A program made the translations under genes and the position numbers. The notes under the pieces were generated by a model, which did no database searches, was not told the DNA's origin, and saw only the letters and a list, made by a program, of their open reading frames with translations. Below are positions 2,754 to 27,873 of a stretch of DNA of 37,328 nucleotides, one piece after another (position 1 is the stretch's first letter; each line of letters starts with the position of its first letter). Origin of the DNA: an uncultured bacterium (GTDB taxonomy: Bacteria > Patescibacteriota > Microgenomatia > UBA1400 > UBA12108); contig CAJAUT010000007.1 in the NCBI GenBank assembly GCA_903945195.1, positions 1 to 37,328 on the forward strand, read 5' to 3'.

Positions 2754-3632
2754 TTATTTGGACCTTGTCAAGCGTGAAATGATGATAGTTAGGAGAAAGA
2801 GAATAATTAGAGCGCGAATTGGTAAAATCCAGAGTAATTTTTCTGTTTCTGAAAGCTTGGTCCCGCCTTGGGTTCTGATGCTAAGGCGTATTTTGTGGGG
2901 ACCTATATTTGACCATTTTGGAGACCAGACAAAACTTTGGGGTAGAGAGTCGACCATAGTTTGCAATTTACGTGATGAATCTCCTAGAATTAAGTGGGGA
3001 TACAAATCTGCTGAAAAGACACTTTTGCCAGACCAATTTATGATCTCATATTTACCTTCTGGACGGATCATGATGGGAGTTTTGTTTTCTAGAAAAGGAT
3101 TTGTGTTGAATGGAAGCCAAGAATCGTGGATAAAAGGTAGCTCAAAGTCTTTGAGCTCGAGGTTGATGGGGAGGATGCCGTCGCTTGTGATTGTAACTAA
3201 AATAAGTGCGGATATCCCCGGTATGGCGGTCGAGGTAGAGAGGTCGTCTTTTGAGCTAGCTTTAAAAACTAAGGCAAGATATACGTCTTGAGAGACATCT
3301 GAGCTTGCGGCTTCGAGGGTGAGGGTAGGGCTTGTATTTGGTCCTGACAATTTGATTGTGAGAGGGAGCGTAGAGGGGACGATGGGCTTTTGATCGATCT
3401 CGATGTGACCAGTAGAGTCGCTAGGTTTGGCAAGATGAATCTCTGGAGTAATCTCTAGATCATTATTGTTGGTAGTGAGGCTAAAAGTCTGTTCGACCTT
3501 TTTATTTGGGGCAAGTAAGATCTCGACAACTGGAGGTGTAACGGAGAGGTCGATAGATTGGGCGTGAGCGAAGGAGGGGGGAAGTAGAAAGTAGAAAGTA
3601 GAAAGAATGGTCGAGAGTAGTAGTTTTTTCAT
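2754..3632 (-). CDS. DUF916-like membrane-anchored surface protein, second copy
   Basis: 292 residues with signal peptide (MKKLLLSTILSTFYFLLPPSFAHAQ), an extracytoplasmic domain starting IDLSVTPPVVEILLAPNKKV and TFSLTTNNNDLE, and a C-terminal helix (ILPIRALIILFLLTIIIS) with a short basic tail. Architecture and order match the 325-residue protein in this operon, so the two are probably paralogues. It sits between two WxL-like secreted proteins (gaps of 4 and 23 bases). Its ATG is 6 bases after a TATATT hexamer on the minus strand, so it may also have its own leaderless start. Three perfect copies of the heptamer AGTAGAA (3583-3605) lie in its signal-peptide coding region. Confidence 0.7.
   Translation of the reverse strand: MKKLLLSTILSTFYFLLPPSFAHAQSIDLSVTPPVVEILLAPNKKVEQTFSLTTNNNDLEITPEIHLAKPSDSTGHIEIDQKPIVPSTLPLTIKLSGPNTSPTLTLEAASSDVSQDVYLALVFKASSKDDLSTSTAIPGISALILVTITSDGILPINLELKDFELPFIHDSWLPFNTNPFLENKTPIMIRPEGKYEIINWSGKSVFSADLYPHLILGDSSRKLQTMVDSLPQSFVWSPKWSNIGPHKIRLSIRTQGGTKLSETEKLLWILPIRALIILFLLTIIISRLTRSK
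3583..3605. repeat. Heptanucleotide tandem repeat (AGTAGAA)3 in signal-peptide coding region
   Basis: Three perfect, contiguous 7-bp units plus two bases of a fourth, in the start region of the second DUF916-like gene. The same motif also occurs as single copies inside leuS, on the opposite coding strand, so it behaves as a DNA-level element rather than a conserved protein motif. Confidence 0.85.
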
Positions 3633-5308: not shown

Positions 5309-6850
5309 ATGCTGGCGCGGATCAAAAGTGTAGCAACGGTTGGACTAGATGCTCAAGAGGTGGTAGTGGAAGTAGATGTGGCAGAGAAAGGATTCCCTGG
5401 TGTTACGATCGTGGGACTACCTGACAAGGCGATAGGGGAATCTAAAGAGCGGGTCAAGAAAGCGATTCAAAATAGTAATGCAACATTTCCTGACAAAAAA
5501 ATCACGATCAATCTGTCTCCGGCGGATCTACCTAAAGTGGGCTCAAACTATGACCTGCCGATTGCCATAGGGATACTGCTGGCGAACGAGGAATTTGAGG
5601 CGAGTGTTGAAGAAGCATATTTTTACGGCGAGCTAGGACTGGACGGGTCGCTAAAACATAGTCGCGGGGTACTACTGGCTGCAATGCTTGCAAAAGAAAA
5701 AGGTATCAAAGATCTGTATGTCTCTATCTATAGTGCCAATGAAGCCGCGGTTGTTGAGGGGATATCGGTTTATCCTGTGCGAGATTTGACTGAGCTGATC
5801 AGACATCTGCGAGGTGACAAACTGATCTCTCCTTTAAAAAATATTGAGTTATCACAAGTACTTGATGAAGTGGAACCTCTTGTAGACTTTAGCGAAATAT
5901 CTGGGCAAGAGATGGCCAAGAGGGCAGCGGAGATCTCGGCGTGTGGCGGACACAATCTACTGCTTGTGGGGCCACCTGGTGCAGGTAAGACCATGCTGGC
6001 AAAGGCACTACCGTCGATATTGCCACCACTACTACCGGAAGAGTCGCTAGAAGTCACTAGGATATATAGTGTATCTGGGCTGATGGAAGTGGGAGGGGCA
6101 CTAGTACATCGGCGACCATTTAGATCGCCACACCATACAACGAGCATGATAGGGCTCATAGGTGGCGGGTCTAATCCGATGCCTGGCGAGGTGTCTCTAG
6201 CTCATTTGGGTGTACTATTTCTGGACGAAATGCCAGAATTTAGCAGGTCGGTCCTCGAAGTACTGCGGCAACCCATGGAGGACGGCAAGGTCTCGATCAC
6301 GCGGGCATCAGGCCGCGTAGAGTACCCAGCTAGCTTTATGCTAATGGCAAGTGCCAACCCGTGCCCTTGTGGATACCTAAATCATCCAACGAAAGAGTGT
6401 GCTTGTGGGATGAGAAATATAGCAAAATATAGACGCCGAGTGAGTGGACCAATCCTAGATAGGATAGATCTGCATGTCTGGGTGGATCCGGTTGAGGTCT
6501 CGAAGTTAAGCGGTGATACTTTAAGGGTCGGACCCTTAAAGTCGGAGAGTTCGAAGGAGATCAGAGAGCGAGTGATAAAGGTGAGAGAGATCCAAAACGA
6601 GAGGTTTAAGGGGGTAAAAGGCATGTATACCAATGCCCAGATGGGAAATAAGCAGGTGAAGCTATATTGTCCATTATCTAGTGAGGTTAAAACTTTTTTA
6701 AATACTGCTGCCAAGAAGTTTGATTTGTCGGCAAGGGCTTATTTTAAAGTAATCAAAGTGGCTAGGACGATCGCAGATATTGCGGGAGAGGCTGAGATAC
6801 TACCCTCGCACATCGCCGAGGCGGTGCAGTATAGGGAGAATGTGTGGTGA
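5309..6850 (+). CDS. comM: ComM/YifB family AAA+ helicase (Mg-chelatase-like)
   Basis: 513 residues, normal length for the family. ComM is a hexameric helicase that promotes branch migration during integration of transforming DNA. The N-terminal ChlI-like domain begins MLARIKSVATVGLDAQEV and contains GFPGVTIVGLPD and NLSPADLPK. The AAA+ core has Walker A GPPGAGKT near residue 221, Walker B VLFLDE near 302, and the CPCGY...CACG cysteine cluster followed by RRRVSGPILDRIDLHV. The C-terminal Mg_chelatase_C part carries LSARAYFKVIKVARTIADI. The start is supported by an extended -10 (TGC-TATAGT, 5297-5302) ending 6 bases before ATG, which suggests a leaderless mRNA. Confidence 0.95.
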   Translation: MLARIKSVATVGLDAQEVVVEVDVAEKGFPGVTIVGLPDKAIGESKERVKKAIQNSNATFPDKKITINLSPADLPKVGSNYDLPIAIGILLANEEFEASVEEAYFYGELGLDGSLKHSRGVLLAAMLAKEKGIKDLYVSIYSANEAAVVEGISVYPVRDLTELIRHLRGDKLISPLKNIELSQVLDEVEPLVDFSEISGQEMAKRAAEISACGGHNLLLVGPPGAGKTMLAKALPSILPPLLPEESLEVTRIYSVSGLMEVGGALVHRRPFRSPHHTTSMIGLIGGGSNPMPGEVSLAHLGVLFLDEMPEFSRSVLEVLRQPMEDGKVSITRASGRVEYPASFMLMASANPCPCGYLNHPTKECACGMRNIAKYRRRVSGPILDRIDLHVWVDPVEVSKLSGDTLRVGPLKSESSKEIRERVIKVREIQNERFKGVKGMYTNAQMGNKQVKLYCPLSSEVKTFLNTAAKKFDLSARAYFKVIKVARTIADIAGEAEILPSHIAEAVQYRENVW

Positions 6851-6857
6851 TTACAAC

Positions 6858-6878
6858 ATCAAACTCCCGGAGTTTGAT
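6858..6878. repeat. REP-like palindrome, family A, copy 1
   Basis: Perfect 10-bp arms ATCAAACTCC and GGAGTTTGAT around a single C. It lies between comM and the first RAYT gene, whose GGAG ribosome binding site follows it. Two more copies flank and follow the transposase. Confidence 0.9.
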
Positions 6879-6894
6879 ATGAAAGGAGTGTGGT

Positions 6895-7542
6895 ATGCCG
6901 AGTAGAAAAGTTCCTCTTGTGAGTGGGTCGTATTACCACGTGTTTAACAGGAGTGTTTTTCAGAATCCTATATTTTCTAATGAGAGAGAGACAAAAGCAT
7001 TTGTAAAAGCTTTAACATACTACACCTTGATCAAACCTCCAAGAAGTTTGTCTTTAGAGAAAAGGTATAAAGAGAATATTATGAATTATGATGAGAGACT
7101 CGTGTCTATACTTTCATATTGTGTAATGCCAAATCATTTTCATATCGAATTGAAACAGGAAGTTGATGGGGGAATTTCTACATATCTCCGACGGTTAAGC
7201 TTGTCTTTTGTGAGATATTACAACTCATTACATAAACAAAAGGGGTCGTTATTTGAATCTCTTTTCAAGTCAGTATTAATCGAATCTGAGAACCAGCTAT
7301 TGCACGTATCTAGATATATACATTTAAACCCAACGAGCGCAGGACTTGTTGATGATCCCATTAAATATCCTTATTCTTCTTTCCGGTTGTATGTTCACGG
7401 GGGAGAGAAGCCCCCGTTTGTCTTTGATGATATTCTGCGTTCTAAAAAGCGAGCATATTACGAGAGATTTGTGTATGACAATATGGAATATCAGCAGACC
7501 CTGCAGTTCATAAAAAACCAGTTGATAGACCACGAGATCTGA
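6895..7542 (+). CDS. REP-associated tyrosine transposase (RAYT, Y1_Tnp family)
   Basis: 215 residues. The N-terminal RAYT signature SGSYYHVFNRSV is present, the metal-binding HFH motif is in VMPNHFHIEL (81-83), and the presumed nucleophile is Y141 in SRYIHLNP. All catalytic residues are therefore intact. The gene is bracketed by identical palindromes (6858-6878 and 7545-7565), the expected substrate of such enzymes. The start has a plain Shine-Dalgarno (AAAGGAG) and no near -10, unlike the leaderless host genes. Inside the gene a GC-rich hairpin (7397-7417, ACGGGGG with CCCCCGT) encodes part of the C-terminal region. RAYTs cut single-stranded DNA at REP hairpins; activity here is inferred. 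Confidence 0.9.
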   Translation: MPSRKVPLVSGSYYHVFNRSVFQNPIFSNERETKAFVKALTYYTLIKPPRSLSLEKRYKENIMNYDERLVSILSYCVMPNHFHIELKQEVDGGISTYLRRLSLSFVRYYNSLHKQKGSLFESLFKSVLIESENQLLHVSRYIHLNPTSAGLVDDPIKYPYSSFRLYVHGGEKPPFVFDDILRSKKRAYYERFVYDNMEYQQTLQFIKNQLIDHEI

Positions 7543-7543
7543 G

Positions 7544-7566
7544 TATCAAACTCCGGGAGTTTGATA
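7544..7566. repeat. REP-like palindrome, family A, copy 2
   Basis: Arms TATCAAACTCC and GGAGTTTGATA around one G, starting 2 bases after the RAYT stop codon. Same sequence as copies 1 and 3 apart from the central base and outer flanks. Confidence 0.9.
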
Positions 7567-7569
7567 TTC

Positions 7570-7710
7570 CTATGGCCGCTGATTGCTTTTGGGTGGACGA
7601 GGAGGAGGGTTGAGAAATAAATTGGCCAAGATTGCTAAAATAGAGAACTGGGCGGTATTCCATAATATTAATAATTGCTCAGGATTGTGAATACCAAGTT
7701 TTTCAAACAT
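7570..7710 (-). CDS. Possible small membrane protein between two REPs
   Basis: A 46-residue reading frame on the minus strand: MFEKLGIHNPEQLLILWNT, then a hydrophobic run (FSILAILANLFL) and a basic proline-rich tail (PPPRPPKSNQRP). The composition resembles a small single-pass membrane protein. A consensus -35 (TTGACA, 7743-7738) lies 16 bp from a weak -10 (AAAATT, 7721-7716) that ends 5 bases before this ATG, close to the leaderless pattern of other genes here. There is no family match by eye. It could be a remnant or chance frame. Confidence 0.35.
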   Translation of the reverse strand: MFEKLGIHNPEQLLILWNTAQFSILAILANLFLNPPPRPPKSNQRP

Positions 7711-7755
7711 GTTGGAATTTTCCCAGAGAGAGAGCTGTGTCAAGGTGGTGGACAC

Positions 7756-7782
7756 AATATCAAACTCCGGGAGTTTGATATT
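7756..7782. repeat. REP-like palindrome, family A, copy 3
   Basis: The longest copy: 13-bp perfect arms (AATATCAAACTCC and GGAGTTTGATATT) around one G, just upstream of the yraN promoter. A short hairpin of this strength could also end leftward or rightward transcripts, but it has no T-tract. Confidence 0.9.
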
Positions 7783-7815
7783 GGGGGACAGTATGTTTTG
7801 GTATAATGGAGGTAT

Positions 7816-11850: not shown

Positions 11851-14292
11851 ATGGCAAAAGATAAGACATATGTACTAGGCATGTTCCCGTATCCCTCCGG
11901 AGAGGGGCTACACGTAGGTCACGGCCGTATATTCTCGGCAGTTGATGTGATGGGACGTTATTTTAGGATGAAAGGGAAGCAGGAATCGCAAAGTTCCGAT
12001 CACTCGCCTAAAATCGCGCAAGGATCGGAACTCGGGGGACAGGTTCTTTCTCCTATGGGTTGGGATGCCTTTGGATTACCTGCAGAAAATGCTGCGATCA
12101 AGGCAAAAAAGAATCCGATCGACATGGTGCCACACAACTACGGTAACTTCCGCGCTCAGATGAAAAATTTATCCTTTGATTTTGACTGGAAGCACGAATT
12201 TGCAACAACTGACCCAACCTATTATGGCTTTACTCAGTGGTTATTTTTACACCTATATGAGGCAGGACTGGTATACAGAGAAGAAGTGGCTATCAACTGG
12301 TGCCCAAAGTGTCTCACGGGGCTAGCAAACGAAGAGGTGATGGGAGACGGGACTCACGAGAGATGTGGGACTGTAGTGACTAAAAAAAGTATGCCCCAAT
12401 GGGTGATGAAAATCACGAATTATGCAGATCGTTTATTAAACGATCTAAGTGCTCCGGTTATCCAGTCATCCAGTAATCCAGTAGATGACAGGAAAACAGG
12501 AAAACAGGAAAACAGGAATACCAACATGGGATTGGATTGGCCACGCGGGATCCTAGAGATGCAGAGGAACTGGATAGGGAAGAAAGAGGGGGTACGAGTA
12601 AAGTTTCAAGTAGAAAGTCCTTCAAGTTTATCAAGTTTAACTGCACTCGAAGTGTTTACAACTAGGATCGACACAATCAACGGAGTCACTTTTATCGTGG
12701 TGGCACCAGAAATAGCAGATGGGTGGATCAACGGTGGATTTGAGGCAAACGAAGAAGTCAAAAAATATATAGAAAAATCATTGCAAAAGAGTGATCAAAC
12801 TAGACAGGAAGGCGAGAAAAATAAAACTGGAGTAGATACAGGACTGAAAGCGATAAACCCGTGGAATCAGGAAGAGGTGCCTATCTACGTGGCTGACTAT
12901 GTGCTACCTGATTTTGGGACAGGGTGCGTCATGGGCGTGCCACAATATGATGAGCGTGATTTGGCTTTTGCTACCAAATATAATCTGGAAGTTAAAGATT
13001 TACCACTTGATAAATACGAAGATGTTTTAGCTAAACTCACAAAAGATAAAGTGGCAAACAGTGAGACAAATTGGCATCTGCGTGACTGGGTATTTTCTCG
13101 CCAGAGATACTGGGGAGAGCCGATCCCACTGGTATACTGCGAAAAATGTGGGGACCAAAATGGTGTGGTACCACTGACAGAAAAAGATCTACCACTTGAG
13201 CTGCCATATTTAGAATCATATGAGCCAACAGATACTGGTGAGTCACCACTGTCTAGAATAAATGAGTGGGTAAATACAAAGTGTCCAAAATGTGGAGGTC
13301 CAGCCAGACGTGAGACAGATACCATGCCAAACTGGGCTGGATCTTGCTGGTATTTCCTGGCTTTCCCTTGGTGGAGTGAAAAGACCAAGACACAGCTAGA
13401 TGAGTTTAAAAAGAAAAGTGAGACTCCATATACGAATTTTTGGAAAGAAGTAGCTAAACCCGAGATAGACAAATGGTTGCCTGTTGACTGGTACCTGGGC
13501 GGGGCAGAGCATGCTGTGCTACACCTGCTTTATGCCAGATTCTGGGTCAAGGTATTTCAGGACCGTGGACTACTAGATTTTTCTGAGCCATTTTTAAGGC
13601 TTCGTAGTGTGGGGATGGTACTGGCAGAAGATGGTAAGAAAATGAGTAAATCCTTGGGTAATGTGATAAATCCAGATGAGATGGTAGCCAAATTTGGATC
13701 TGATGCGGTAAGACTTTATGAGATGTTTATGGGGCCATGGGACCAGGCGATATCTTGGGATACGAGGTCACTCATAGGCCAGAAAAGATTTATCGAGAGA
13801 ATTGGGGAAGCGGTGAAGAAGGTGGGAGACAAGACCTCGCCAATACTTAGCGTAAACCTAGTCAAGCTAGGAGAAAAAGTGGAGAAAGGCATAGTAGAGC
13901 AGAAATTTAACACAGCGATCGCATCTATCATGGAATTTGTGAATATGTGGCGTGGATCTGATCTCGTAATGAGTCAAAATGACGTAAATAAGTTTGCACA
14001 ACTTTTGTCACCATTTGCACCAATTTGTGCTAAATCGATTTGGGATCAGGCTGAAACCGCGAAGTGGCCGACCTTTGAAGAGGTGAGTGAAATGGCTGAA
14101 GTGCCTGTGACTATAGCTGTGCAAGTAAATGGCAAGCTGAGGGCGACGGTTGAGTTAGAAAGTAGCAAGTCAAAAGTAGAAAGTGAGGTCATGAAGATTG
14201 TCATGGATAATGAGCAGGTGAAAAAATGGGCGCCAGGCGAAATAAAGAAAACTATCTTTATCCCTGGAAAAATTGTGAACTTAGTGGTCTAA
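11851..14292 (+). CDS. leuS: Leucyl-tRNA synthetase with two in-frame insertions of repeat DNA
   Basis: 813 residues. Class I synthetase charging tRNA-Leu. The HIGH-type motif is HVGH (21-24, within PYPSGEGLHVGHGRI), KMSKS is at 597-601, and the CP1 editing domain shows FTTRIDTI (usually FTTRPDT) and DFGTGCVMGVP...DERD. Other family blocks: MGWDAFGLPAENAAIKAK and NWCPKC...L. Two stretches do not belong to the family: residues 43-64 (KQESQSSDHS...GSELGGQ), between FRMKG and VLSPMGWDAFGLP, encoded by a palindromic element; and about residues 200-227, between NDL and LDWPRGILEMQRNWIG, encoded by two 8-bp tandem arrays. The rest is complete, so the enzyme is presumably active. A -10 (TAAAAT) ends 6 bases before ATG. 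Confidence 0.97.
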   Translation: MAKDKTYVLGMFPYPSGEGLHVGHGRIFSAVDVMGRYFRMKGKQESQSSDHSPKIAQGSELGGQVLSPMGWDAFGLPAENAAIKAKKNPIDMVPHNYGNFRAQMKNLSFDFDWKHEFATTDPTYYGFTQWLFLHLYEAGLVYREEVAINWCPKCLTGLANEEVMGDGTHERCGTVVTKKSMPQWVMKITNYADRLLNDLSAPVIQSSSNPVDDRKTGKQENRNTNMGLDWPRGILEMQRNWIGKKEGVRVKFQVESPSSLSSLTALEVFTTRIDTINGVTFIVVAPEIADGWINGGFEANEEVKKYIEKSLQKSDQTRQEGEKNKTGVDTGLKAINPWNQEEVPIYVADYVLPDFGTGCVMGVPQYDERDLAFATKYNLEVKDLPLDKYEDVLAKLTKDKVANSETNWHLRDWVFSRQRYWGEPIPLVYCEKCGDQNGVVPLTEKDLPLELPYLESYEPTDTGESPLSRINEWVNTKCPKCGGPARRETDTMPNWAGSCWYFLAFPWWSEKTKTQLDEFKKKSETPYTNFWKEVAKPEIDKWLPVDWYLGGAEHAVLHLLYARFWVKVFQDRGLLDFSEPFLRLRSVGMVLAEDGKKMSKSLGNVINPDEMVAKFGSDAVRLYEMFMGPWDQAISWDTRSLIGQKRFIERIGEAVKKVGDKTSPILSVNLVKLGEKVEKGIVEQKFNTAIASIMEFVNMWRGSDLVMSQNDVNKFAQLLSPFAPICAKSIWDQAETAKWPTFEEVSEMAEVPVTIAVQVNGKLRATVELESSKSKVESEVMKIVMDNEQVKKWAPGEIKKTIFIPGKIVNLVV
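11992..12032. repeat. Palindromic element (family C) inserted in leuS
   Basis: 10-bp perfect arms AGTTCCGATC (11992-12001) and GATCGGAACT (12023-12032) with a 21-bp interior. The right flank continues as CGGGGGACAGG. The same arms, with the same A-rich left edge and GGGGAC right flank, occur at 25571-25620 in another gene, so this is a dispersed element. It encodes most of LeuRS residues 43-64. Confidence 0.85.
12458..12519. repeat. Two adjacent 8-bp tandem arrays inserted in leuS
   Basis: Three units of the form TNATCCAG (12458-12481) are followed by three exact copies of ACAGGAAA plus a fourth ACAGGAAT (12488-12519). They encode a polar Ser/Asn/Gln/Lys-rich stretch in LeuRS that breaks the conserved NDL...LDWP junction. 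Confidence 0.85.
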
Positions 14293-19911: not shown

Positions 19912-19934
19912 CCTACGAGGATGATCCTTGTAGG
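19912..19934. repeat. REP-like palindrome, family B, downstream copy
   Basis: 11-bp arms CCTACGAGGAT and ATCCTTGTAGG around one G (10 of 11 paired, plus one G-T), 2 bases beyond the stop of the second RAYT gene. The core AGGAT-G-ATCCT recurs at 20428-20454 and 20660-20682, and in weaker form at 20128-20147. Confidence 0.85.
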
Positions 19935-19935
19935 G

Positions 19936-20622
19936 TCATTCTAGATCTATTGTGATTTTGAGAATAGGGGTTATATCGTTAGGATCTGATTCTTCGACAA
20001 AATTCTGATAAGAACAGCGTGGGTTAGTTTTAGAAAAATAAATTAATATATCCTTCGTTTGAACCCAAGATTGAGAAAACATATTTAGATAGTTGGCATA
20101 ACTTGAATATTTGTAGAAACTAAGTCTGCGAGGATCATCCTTGAAGGTAGGTAACGAGATTGGATTGCGGTGGATATACTTGGTCAAATATGTGAATTGA
20201 GACTCACTTTCAATCCGAACTGCTTTATAGATACCTTGGAACAAATGTCCTGTACGTTCGTATTTGGTGTTAAAGTATCTAGAATATTTTGTAGCTAGTG
20301 AGCGCATGAAATGATTGATCCCAAATTCAGAATATTGTTTGACCATAAGATGAAAGTGATTGGGCATGAGACAGTACGCGATCAATTCGATTTCACCTTT
20401 ATAATTCTTTAGTTGTCTAGAAGGAGAAACCTTCAAGGATGATCCTTGAAGGTTGGTAGCAATTTCTGGAATTAGGGGAGGGGAGAGATAAAACTGAAGA
20501 TATGATAGAAATGTTGAGTAGTCCTCTTGATCTTTGAAAATAAGTCTTCTGTTTACGCCGCGATTGTAGATGTGGTAGTAGCCACCAGCCTCATATCGTT
20601 TGAGAGCGTTTTTACTAGGCAT
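19936..20622 (-). CDS. REP-associated tyrosine transposase (RAYT), second type, with internal REP
   Basis: 228 residues. It opens with MPSKNALKRYEAGGYYHIYNRG, has HFH in CLMPNHFHLMV (89-91), and the nucleophile Y149 in TKYIHRNPISL, so the enzyme looks intact. It is flanked by its own palindrome family (19912-19934 and 20660-20682), unlike the family-A repeats of the first RAYT. A perfect copy of the palindrome lies within the coding region (20428-20454) and encodes NLQGSSLKV in the variable stretch before the HFH motif; a degenerate one encodes part of the C-terminal region near DDPRRL. The ATG is 7 bases after TATACT on the minus strand. Substrate recognition of the flanking hairpins is inferred from the family. 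Confidence 0.9.
   Translation of the reverse strand: MPSKNALKRYEAGGYYHIYNRGVNRRLIFKDQEDYSTFLSYLQFYLSPPLIPEIATNLQGSSLKVSPSRQLKNYKGEIELIAYCLMPNHFHLMVKQYSEFGINHFMRSLATKYSRYFNTKYERTGHLFQGIYKAVRIESESQFTYLTKYIHRNPISLPTFKDDPRRLSFYKYSSYANYLNMFSQSWVQTKDILIYFSKTNPRCSYQNFVEESDPNDITPILKITIDLE
20428..20454. repeat. REP-like palindrome, family B, inside the RAYT coding region
   Basis: The most perfect copy: 13-bp arms AACCTTCAAGGAT and ATCCTTGAAGGTT around one G. It is read in frame within the transposase gene. Confidence 0.9.
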
Positions 20623-20659
20623 TGAGATAAGTATACTATTTTTGAAATTGCTTAATAGA

Positions 20660-20682
20660 CCTACGAGGATGATCCTCTTAGG
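20660..20682. repeat. REP-like palindrome, family B, upstream copy
   Basis: Arms CCTACGAGGAT and ATCCTCTTAGG around one G, with one mismatch, 37 bases upstream of the RAYT start. With the copy at 19912-19934 it brackets the gene in a ~770-bp unit. Confidence 0.85.
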
Positions 20683-20720
20683 GAAGATAGTAGTAGTGAT
20701 TGCTACTACTAGTTATAGGC

Positions 20721-25350: not shown

Positions 25351-27873
25351 CTATTTTTCGACGATGAATTTGATGTTGACCCAATAACCTTTGGTTGTGT
25401 CTTTTTCGCTGAAGCCGATGTTGCGCCACTCGCCATCTTCTTTGAAGATTACGATGTCCTGAGATTCTTTGAGGGCCATGATGATGTCGGCGCTGCTACT
25501 AGGTTTGTTGCGGATGTTTACAGAAGAATCTGAAGGCACTTCGATGCGATGGGTCAATAATGGCTCAGAAAGTTCCGATCTATCCTTCGTTTCACTGCGG
25601 ACCGCTGAAAGATCGGAACTAGGGGACGGGGAGGGCTCTATACTAGGAGAAGGAGTGGGGGTAGCAACGGGTGAGGGGATGATAGAAGGAGCTACCACCT
25701 CCGCTACTTGTGGAGAGGTTGGTTTGCCACCAGCCATGCGGGTGAGGGCAACTGTAGAGACCGCAGTTACAACTACGACTGCTGTGATAAAGGATGGCAT
25801 CTGCCAGAATGATTTGTTGCCACCTGAACTAGAGGGGATGATAAGAGGTGAGAGGCGGGGAATAGAAGAGATAGAGGTGGCCTCATCTGCGACTGATTCT
25901 AGGGTAGCATTGTTTGCGAGTGCTGGAACAAGCCTCTTGAAGTAACTAGACATAAAGACGAATCCTGCCACAACTACTAGGATGATCCCAAAGACTGCAG
26001 TAGTTGAGACGCCGCCCACAAAACCCATGATGGAACTATTGCCGGTGGCTTGGGCTACCAAGTTTTCAAGCTGCGTCATGTTGGCACCGACTGTAAGGAG
26101 CTCTAGCTGAGCTTCCCTGTAGAGCTTGATTCTATTTTCGGGCTTGGTGGATTTGATCTGAGACGAGAGGAGTTTTTGCACGGATGATTCGATATCGCCT
26201 TTGAGCATGATTCCTTGTGAAAGTAGAGCAGATTTTTCTAGGGATTTGGTGAGATCTGCGGCTTTTTTGGTAATACCTGCGAGCTCGTCATCACTAAGCT
26301 GCCAGACATCATTTACTTCTACTGCAACGATTTTGGTGACGCCAGGCTTTAGATCAAAAGTACCTGTAACTGCTAAAGAGTCAGCAACTGTGTCGTAACC
26401 GGCAGAAAGCATGGAATCGATAGTCATGATGTCTTCCATCTTGAGTTCTTTAGGTAGGAAGAATTTGATGGGGGCAGACTGGGCGATGAGACTACTTGGA
26501 TTGGTGATGACAGCACGGAAGATAATACTGCCTTCTTCTAGCCAGAGTCCGCGCACTGGTGAGTCGACTGCAGAAGCTAGACGCGCTCTATTTAAACCTG
26601 CTAAACCTTGTAGACTAAAGACGAGATTTTTAAGAGCAGCTTTGCCGGTGGCTTTTTTGTTACTAGGTTCGACGACTGATTCTCCACCTGGAAATTCGTT
26701 GATGGCGAGAAGTTTGTCCTGCGAGTCATTGATTTTTTTCTTTAAAATAGATTCGCCTGTTCCTTCCCAGTCGTCTAAAATCGACGAGAGTTTTTGGGAT
26801 TCTGTGAGGAAGAGCTCATCTTTTTCGCTGACGGCTGAGAGATAACCGTAGAATGTTTGATCGCTACTATCGCTAGTGACGTCGCCTAGGGCATCTTCGA
26901 TATCAGAGAGTGATTTGACTGCTGATAGAAGGGCGGCAGGAGCGGAGTTAGATTTGGTAGCGCTACTTGATAAGAGCGAGGTGAGGGAATCTTTGACAGT
27001 GGCACTTGAATCTGCGATCGAAGTCACTGATTTGGTATTCCAGGATTTTGATAAAGAGGATATAGTCTCTGGATTATTCCAGACTTGGGAAAGACTCGTG
27101 ATTTCTTTAGATAAAGCATCTGCTGATAATCTAGACCATTTTTCATCTAGAGTCATAAGGCGAGATTTGCTACTTTGGACGGAGTCATATAGTAGGCCTG
27201 CTTGTTTTTTGCTGTCTTCTAGTTTTTGACTAAGATCTGGAGTATTTGAGTCTTCTAGTTCGAGTGTGACAACTGGCGCATTGACGAGTTTTTCTAAGAT
27301 CTCTCTTTGGCGGGTTTGCTCGGCCATGATGTTTTGAAGGGTGCTTGGGGCAGGGGTAGAGCTAGTGTTAAAGTCAAAAGAAGTGAGAGTCTTGTTTGAG
27401 TATCCCCAGACATCGCTCACCAAACTACCAAAGCTAGTGAGCGAGCGAGTGGAGTAGTTCCATATATCAGAGATGAGGGTGCCGTAGCTAGTGAGCGTGC
27501 GATCGGAGTAGCTCCAGATATCGGCCGGAGTGGCTCCTGAAACAACTGGTGTTTTTACTTCAAAACTTTTGTCTAAACACATCAGACCTGAGGCAGGGGT
27601 GCAGCATATCGTGGTGGTATACAGGCCCGTGGTGGTGGAGAGTGTTGCGTCGTAGCTATACCAACCGTCGCTACGTCCAGTCATGGCAGCGGCGGTGACG
27701 AAGGGGGTGCCGTCTGGGTTTTTGGCTGTTATCGTACAGCTAGCGCCAGTTAAAACAGAGTAGTCGTCGTTGTACAAAAACTCGCCGATCGTGCAGGTAG
27801 AGCTAGTTTGACACTGCTGATACTCTGTGGCTTTGGCAGTCGAGATGAGGAGGGCAGCAAGTAGCTCTAACAT
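25351..27873 (-). CDS. Large membrane-anchored surface protein with virion-type repeats and SH3b domain
   Basis: 840 residues. A short signal-like N-terminus (MLELLAALLISTAKA) precedes a cysteine-containing beta domain (STCTIGEF, TGLYTTTICC). Three tandem repeats of the form DIWSYSDRTLTSYG follow (about 118-165), a motif I associate with phage tail-type proteins, then a long helical Ser-rich stalk and a beta domain (LPKELKMEDIMTIDSMLSAGYD). Membrane helices lie at about 614-643 and 690-714, then a Pro/Ser linker, and a bacterial SH3 domain at ~775-840 (SVNIRNKPSSSADIIMALKES...GYWVNIKFI). The linker contains a family-C palindromic element (residues ~751-768, SETKDRSEL). The ATG lies 3 bases after the last tatA stop, so it is the end of the Tat operon and may be tied to export. 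Confidence 0.7.
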   Translation of the reverse strand: MLELLAALLISTAKATEYQQCQTSSTCTIGEFLYNDDYSVLTGASCTITAKNPDGTPFVTAAAMTGRSDGWYSYDATLSTTTGLYTTTICCTPASGLMCLDKSFEVKTPVVSGATPADIWSYSDRTLTSYGTLISDIWNYSTRSLTSFGSLVSDVWGYSNKTLTSFDFNTSSTPAPSTLQNIMAEQTRQREILEKLVNAPVVTLELEDSNTPDLSQKLEDSKKQAGLLYDSVQSSKSRLMTLDEKWSRLSADALSKEITSLSQVWNNPETISSLSKSWNTKSVTSIADSSATVKDSLTSLLSSSATKSNSAPAALLSAVKSLSDIEDALGDVTSDSSDQTFYGYLSAVSEKDELFLTESQKLSSILDDWEGTGESILKKKINDSQDKLLAINEFPGGESVVEPSNKKATGKAALKNLVFSLQGLAGLNRARLASAVDSPVRGLWLEEGSIIFRAVITNPSSLIAQSAPIKFFLPKELKMEDIMTIDSMLSAGYDTVADSLAVTGTFDLKPGVTKIVAVEVNDVWQLSDDELAGITKKAADLTKSLEKSALLSQGIMLKGDIESSVQKLLSSQIKSTKPENRIKLYREAQLELLTVGANMTQLENLVAQATGNSSIMGFVGGVSTTAVFGIILVVVAGFVFMSSYFKRLVPALANNATLESVADEATSISSIPRLSPLIIPSSSGGNKSFWQMPSFITAVVVVTAVSTVALTRMAGGKPTSPQVAEVVAPSIIPSPVATPTPSPSIEPSPSPSSDLSAVRSETKDRSELSEPLLTHRIEVPSDSSVNIRNKPSSSADIIMALKESQDIVIFKEDGEWRNIGFSEKDTTKGYWVNIKFIVEK
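25571..25620. repeat. Palindromic element (family C) inside the SH3b protein gene
   Basis: Arms AGTTCCGATC (25571-25580) and GATCGGAACT (25611-25620), identical to the leuS copy, with a 30-bp interior that differs in sequence and length. The flanks (AA before, AGGGGACGGG after) resemble those in leuS. Both copies are in coding sequence and in frame. Confidence 0.85.

Follow-up and report, generated by a model that had tools for sequence, protein, structure and literature searches.

Why does a leucyl-tRNA synthetase (LeuRS) carry about 20 residues near its HIGH motif that its closest relative lacks, and why is a palindrome found in the codons for them? We analyzed a stretch of 37,328 nucleotides (the window) containing the leuS gene, together with its own genome (1.05 Mb in 34 contigs, a draft that is 97.6% complete).

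A palindrome within the leuS gene

The protein has the class Ia catalytic domain, the editing domain and the HIGH and KMSKS motifs of a bacterial LeuRS, as indicated by Pfam and by its sequence. Both signature motifs are intact (HVGH, residues 21-24; KMSKS, residues 597-601). The closest relative, genome G001, has a LeuRS with 71% identity over the protein. In a pairwise comparison the residues read ...FRMKGKQESQSSDHSPKIAQGSELGGQVLSPMGWDAFGLP here and ...LRMKGREVLSPMGWDAFGLP in G001. The extra segment is 20 residues long and corresponds to residues 44-63 or 45-64 (nt 11980-12039 or 11983-12042). CAG is present at both ends of the insert, which leaves its position ambiguous by 3 nt. Between RMKG and VLSPMGWDAFGLP the protein contains KQESQSSDHSPKIAQGSELGGQ; G001 reads RMKG-RE-VLSPMGW, and relatives at the order level likewise have one or two residues at this turn.

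The 20 codons consist of a 41-nt inverted repeat, AGTTCCGATC...GATCGGAACT, as the core, plus short flanks. The palindrome is predicted to form a hairpin of about -18 to -24 kcal/mol for stretches of 39-64 nt. No match to Rfam families was found across the window. These data bear out the proposal of a first-pass annotation that a palindromic element is inserted in frame in an otherwise intact LeuRS.

We consider it highly probable that the peptide derives from a REPIN-like non-autonomous element, most likely moved by a RAYT, that inserted at a harmless turn, kept the reading frame and is translated. Features discussed below are listed in Table 1.

Table 1. Coordinates of leuS, its insert, and repeats and transposase genes of the same genome. 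Positions are in the window unless a contig is given.
Feature	Position	Strand	Remarks
leuS, leucyl-tRNA synthetase, 813 aa, host of the insertion	11851..14292	+	Pfam PF13603, PF00133, PF09334; aligns with LeuRS of family relatives and PDB 1h3n/5ah5
Inserted segment, 60 nt/20 codons relative to the closest relative	11980..12042	+	Compared with G001 and G044 LeuRS
41-nt REPIN-like palindrome AGTTCCGATC-ACTCGCCTAAAATCGCGCAAG-GATCGGAACT	11992..12032		Arms 11992-12001 and 12023-12032; identical copies C9:17254, C9:58007
Second copy in the window, 50-nt form, longer loop	25571..25620		Inside 840-aa ORF 25351-27873 (-), Ser/Pro-rich linker; read SSDLSAVRSETKDRSEL
RAYT-like Y1 transposase, 228 aa, one of four	19936..20622	-	PF01797, E=1.4e-12; bounded on either side by its own REP (different from that of leuS), with two more copies in the gene
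REP CCTACGAGGATGATCCTTGTAGGG, just downstream of RAYT 19936-20622	19912..19935		Repeat search
REP upstream of RAYT 19936-20622	20660..20683		Repeat search
Internal in-frame REP, site 1, RAYT 19936-20622	20430..20453		Upstream of MPNHFH (HUH motif)
Internal in-frame REP, site 2, RAYT 19936-20622	20125..20148		Just after YIHRNP (catalytic tyrosine) motif
Second RAYT-like Y1 transposase in the window, 215 aa	6895..7542	+	PF01797, E=1.7e-5; different flanking REP, no internal copies
REP ATCAAACTCCCGGAGTTTGATAT, upstream of RAYT 6895-7542	6844..6880		Further copies 7531-7567, 7745-7781
Second family copies, L196-L204	Contigs C9, C10, C13, C17, C19, C20		Usually read GSDLxGxAQPADSKAGRSDP

A dispersed family of REPIN-like elements

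Palindromes of the leuS kind are found in at least 17 places in the genome, and a reversed control pattern is found in none. The palindrome in leuS is therefore not a chance occurrence. The same element recurs in other genes, and all 17 copies are within ORFs; a genome-wide family, with its link to a transposase, was beyond what the first-pass annotation could see. The leuS copy and two others share an identical sequence of 41 nt. Copy lengths vary from 35 to 50 nt and loops from 15 to 30 nt, with perfect arms throughout. When the 17 copies were aligned, the arms were paired in 170 of 170 cells, and 7 cells were changed on both sides (C-G to A-T at one pair, and T-A to A-T or C-G at another). 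This number of double changes was reached in 0 of 500 shuffles.

The family consensus is about CTGCAAAGTTCCGATCACTCGCCTAAAATCGCGCAAGGATCGGAACTAGGGGACA, two REP units inverted around a short spacer. Like a REPIN, it is an inverted REP pair that forms one hairpin and is repeated in the genome. A GTAG (or similar) head is absent beside the foot of the palindrome, where the alignment flanks are CTGCAA and AGGGGACA; we therefore call the element REPIN-like and not a GTAG REP. No convincing copies were found in 52 relatives, which gave three single degenerate matches, the level of the control.

The genome contains a second REPIN-like family, GGGTCTGACCTT...AAGGTCAGACCC, with nine copies of 48-62 nt, seven of them within ORFs. 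It is absent from 19 relatives, and no RAYT carrying the GGGTCTGACCTT REP was found. This family shows that the process is general in the genome.

The compensatory changes in the stem could reflect a host function as well as recognition by a transposase. The hairpin would then be kept for a role in mRNA or DNA, as a regulatory hairpin, a transcript stabiliser or a protein-binding site, and would not be selfish DNA. We consider this unlikely. The copies are scattered in their positions within genes and in the functions of their hosts, and are absent from the orthologs of relatives, and REPs linked to RAYTs keep their palindromes for their own mobility.

Host genes and reading frames

Host genes were named from sequence motifs and known family features. 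We take the hosts to include LeuRS, ValRS, an ATP-dependent DNA ligase, a TatD-like DNase, a glycosyltransferase, Tgt, QueA, DnaX and Fmt. Other hosts are presumably a DUS enzyme (twice), a flippase-like protein, a nucleotidyltransferase, a membrane hydrolase-like protein and an exported protein. The remaining two copies, on the same assumption, lie in a large Ser/Pro-rich membrane protein, which holds the copy at 25571-25620, and at the point where aldolase and PGK are joined in a fusion. At the coding density of about 89% in the window, intragenic location of all 17 copies is not by itself statistically surprising (0.89^17 = 0.14); what stands out is the difference from known REPs, which are strongly biased towards intergenic positions, REPINs being mostly extragenic, and not a departure from chance expectation.

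For most copies the host uses a single frame, which gives (L)QSSDHSPKIAQGSEL(G). Stops are present in about half of the six frames for most copies, and in the frame used by the host for none of the 17. The chance of all 17 being stop-free in that frame is about 1e-4, counting stops only. Empty sites are present in relatives, compared to which the insertions add 20 residues in LeuRS, 16 in TatD, 19 in ValRS, about 21 in QueA and 10 at the second DUS site. Several host sites are variable in relatives, and a clean empty site is not available for every copy. The net extra length varies between sites (10-21 residues, a few less clean). With these differences the ends of the element are approximate and any target duplication is putative, despite the CAG on both sides in leuS.

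A strong hairpin within coding sequence, with copies dispersed in genes, might also be expected of an element that is removed or skipped at the RNA or translation level and is absent from the protein; a mini-intron would be one case, and another a hop element comparable to the mobile bypassing elements found in yeast mitochondria. An element that is skipped has no need to stay in frame or to lack stops, yet all 17 copies are stop-free in the host frame, and copies of different lengths (35-50 nt) all preserve it. Skipping is very unlikely in our judgment. An intron and translational bypassing were rejected on account of the stop-free host frames, and an intein was rejected because the LeuRS insert is too short. 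Instead, the insert is most likely translated within the enzyme and not spliced, and only insertions that kept the frame would have survived.

In one ORF, a fusion of fructose-bisphosphate aldolase and phosphoglycerate kinase, the linker consists of a palindrome copy (L020, C16:19553-19593). The two are separate genes in relatives, and in G002 they overlap by stop and start in different frames. Palindrome insertions may even fuse neighboring genes. In QueA, Fmt and DUS of G002 and G005 (L114, L118, L136, L142), variable peptides with a recurring GFTDLR or GFTDIR are found near the insertion sites of the present genome, suggesting another in-gene element there.

The insertion site in LeuRS

The insert is located in the turn between the HIGH helix and the VLxPMGWDAFGLP strand, and aligns between Gly70 and Glu72 of Thermus thermophilus LeuRS (1h3n). 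In class I synthetases the turn at the end of the HIGH helix faces away from the active site. An AlphaFold prediction of the LeuRS with six sequences had a mean pLDDT of 52, and about 23-33 around the insert, values too low to inform on the loop.

The turn has no extra residues in G001 and G044, about two in G002, and about 12 to 16 in G003, G004 and G005. The first-pass annotation had named the same peptide in palindrome-free relatives as grounds against an insertion, and G001, G044 and G002 do not have it. It had also described the enzyme as interrupted at its catalytic core. This is overstated, because three of the five family relatives carry different insertions at this turn: SFDPSTRSTRSGLLQA (G004), SAHPSTRSARSGAPKAPA (G003) and SRLRASATSGHGESSPQ (G005). 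Judged from the alignments, the insert occupies a permissive turn past the HIGH helix and not the catalytic core. The earlier observation was thus real and its interpretation right in part. A single permissive site can be the repeated target of different insertions from species to species, and the element in leuS would have landed where extra residues do little harm.

The inserts in G003 and G004 (L028, L034) match a palindrome, CCCTTCGAC...GCTCAGGG. The peptides at the turn in these genomes are encoded by CCCTTCGACTCG..CTCGCTCAGGG palindromes, and the pattern is also found at G023:C3:7090-7117, elsewhere within the LeuRS match region. A search with a strict pattern found no further copies of the G003 and G004 palindromes in their own genomes, and the G005 insert has no further copies in the G005 genome. 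Each being single-copy, we do not claim these three inserts as mobile repeats.

The variable length of the turn, from about two extra residues in G002 to about 12 to 16 in G003, G004 and G005, and the single-copy insert in G005 would also suit an ordinary lineage-specific loop extension, with the palindrome coincidental or produced by local hairpin slippage. This reading has very little chance of being correct for the leuS studied here. The identical 41-mer is found in unrelated genes of the genome, and the 17 family members, against 0 controls, are dispersed copies that refute it; for the G005 insert a loop extension is possible. An assembly artefact or chimera at the repeat, conceivable as a misjoin in a 34-contig draft and raised in the first-pass annotation as a way to be wrong, is extremely improbable, as the leuS ORF stays collinear to the left and right of the insert, ordinary reads are much longer than the repeat and the 16 other copies lie in frame in intact ORFs.

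A candidate transposase

Two inverted REPs around a spacer would constitute a non-autonomous mobile element, which depends on a transposase for its movement. The genome encodes five Y1_Tnp genes, one IS200-like and four RAYT-like, and each of the four RAYT-like genes is flanked by its own short palindrome (REP). For the RAYT on contig C6 (56.6-57.3 kb) the REP is TTTGCAAAGTTACGATCCTTGCAAA, present both beside the gene and within it. A single base separates the core of this REP, AGTTACGATC, from the leuS-type AGTTCCGATC. AGTTACGATC is found exactly in both arms of 2 of the 17 dispersed copies (C19:54516 and C25:9081), in which the neighboring TGCAAAGTT and CCTTG also match. The leuS copy is one base off per arm, and some other copies are two bases off. 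None of the RAYTs in the genome has exactly AGTTCCGATC; the link is through REPs that differ by one base. The near match suggests that the C6 RAYT, a Y1 transposase, is most likely what moved the leuS-type element, as single-stranded DNA.

The window contains two of the RAYT-like genes. The one at 6895-7542 is part of a segment (6844-7783) in which it is flanked by ATCAAACTCC(C/G)GGAGTTTGAT, with an extra copy at 7745-7781.

REPs inside RAYT genes

Three of the four RAYTs in the genome, including the one at 19936-20622 in the window, contain two further in-frame copies of their own REP. We surveyed 34 RAYTs of this order whose flanking REP could be identified, counting 14 or more of 18 positions as a match. 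The own REP is present before the MPNHFH codons, about 77-104 nt upstream, in 18 of the 34 genes, and about 206-236 nt after them in 23. In a control stretch between the two internal sites it is present in none of the 34. When REPs were swapped between RAYTs, the average match was 10.3-10.5 of 18. The second site follows YIHRNP, the tyrosine of which aligns with the KYIE tyrosine of ISDra2 TnpA (2xm3), which we take to be the catalytic tyrosine. Two related RAYTs of two genera, L060 in this genome and L091 in G003, have different REPs, and their internal copies differ accordingly. Outside the order, internal copies are present in some RAYTs and not in others, so the feature is not universal.

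The arrangement of the own REP at the ends and at two fixed internal sites is observed in the window (19912-20683), in L059 and L060, and in about 20 RAYTs in relatives. The REP varies from one RAYT to another and agrees within each locus.

One tentative reading, which we hold to be possible and somewhat less than even, is that the own REP is a built-in part of RAYT genes in this CPR lineage, at two fixed coding sites, and that the four REPs of a locus change in concert as specificity drifts. With its recognition site in its own sequence, such a gene may regulate, cut or re-target itself. If so, a system common to the lineage would be placing REPs in proteins as a matter of routine, with the LeuRS insert among its products. 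RAYTs with internal REPs offer a direct test of co-evolution between transposase and target.

Relation to known systems

Protein-coding palindromes have reportedly been a Rickettsia curiosity since 2000, and we know of no clear mover for them. The present genome joins two halves, palindromes in essential proteins and a resident RAYT with nearly the same REP. It indicates that mobile DNA within an essential enzyme can be tolerated by the streamlined genomes of CPR bacteria.

REPINs and RAYTs (REPtrons) have been described in Pseudomonas fluorescens SBW25 (PMC3116915), at rayT of Escherichia coli and in Stenotrophomonas (PMC2817692). The element shares with them an inverted REP hairpin, compensatory changes in the arms and a Y1 transposase flanked by a matching or nearly matching REP. 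It differs in that all copies are in genes, the copy number is low and there is no GTAG head. Overlap with genes was seen for only 14 of 1,067 of the most abundant REP 16-mers in SBW25 (PMC3116915). At the E. coli rayT locus the REPs are outside only, whereas the RAYTs here carry a REP inside the coding sequence.

The palindromic elements of Rickettsia and Wolbachia (RPE, WPE) are in frame in many unrelated genes and give tolerated peptides (Ogata et al. 2000, summarised in PMC10969869, PMC3767692). Shared with these are the in-frame palindromes, here too giving a peptide within an ORF that is, as far as sequence can tell, tolerated, and the presence of different elements at or near the same site of an ortholog. 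Unlike the RPEs, which are about 100-150 nt long, the element here is 41-60 nt, occurs in unrelated bacteria (Microgenomates, not Rickettsia or Wolbachia) and has a candidate transposase. By analogy, it appears to work like a REPIN inserted in the manner of the Rickettsia palindromic elements.

According to the available passages of one survey, intragenic GTAG/CGTC REP dimers in ORFs encode 20-30 aa, with tRNA synthetases and DNA repair genes among the hosts, and two Xanthomonas have different REPs at about the same recB site (PMC3733652). In those passages most REPs are intergenic, in contrast to the wholly intragenic copies here. They contain no mention of Patescibacteria or of REPs inside RAYT genes, and no description of RAYT genes carrying their own REPs internally was found in the open-licence literature searched. 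To the extent covered by these passages and the work on RPEs, the element is of a kind already known, as intragenic REP dimers and in-frame palindromes. As far as could be found, the occurrence in a CPR lineage, the exclusively intragenic distribution and the RAYTs carrying their own REPs are new.

Other repeats in the window

The LeuRS has a second, different expansion, VIQSSSNPVDDRKTGKQENRNTN, at about 12456-12525, with short tandem repeats (ATCCAGT, AGGAAAAC); it falls in a region that drops out of alignments with relatives. GTAGAAA-type simple repeat runs are located near gene ends at 1188-1236 and 3560-3608.
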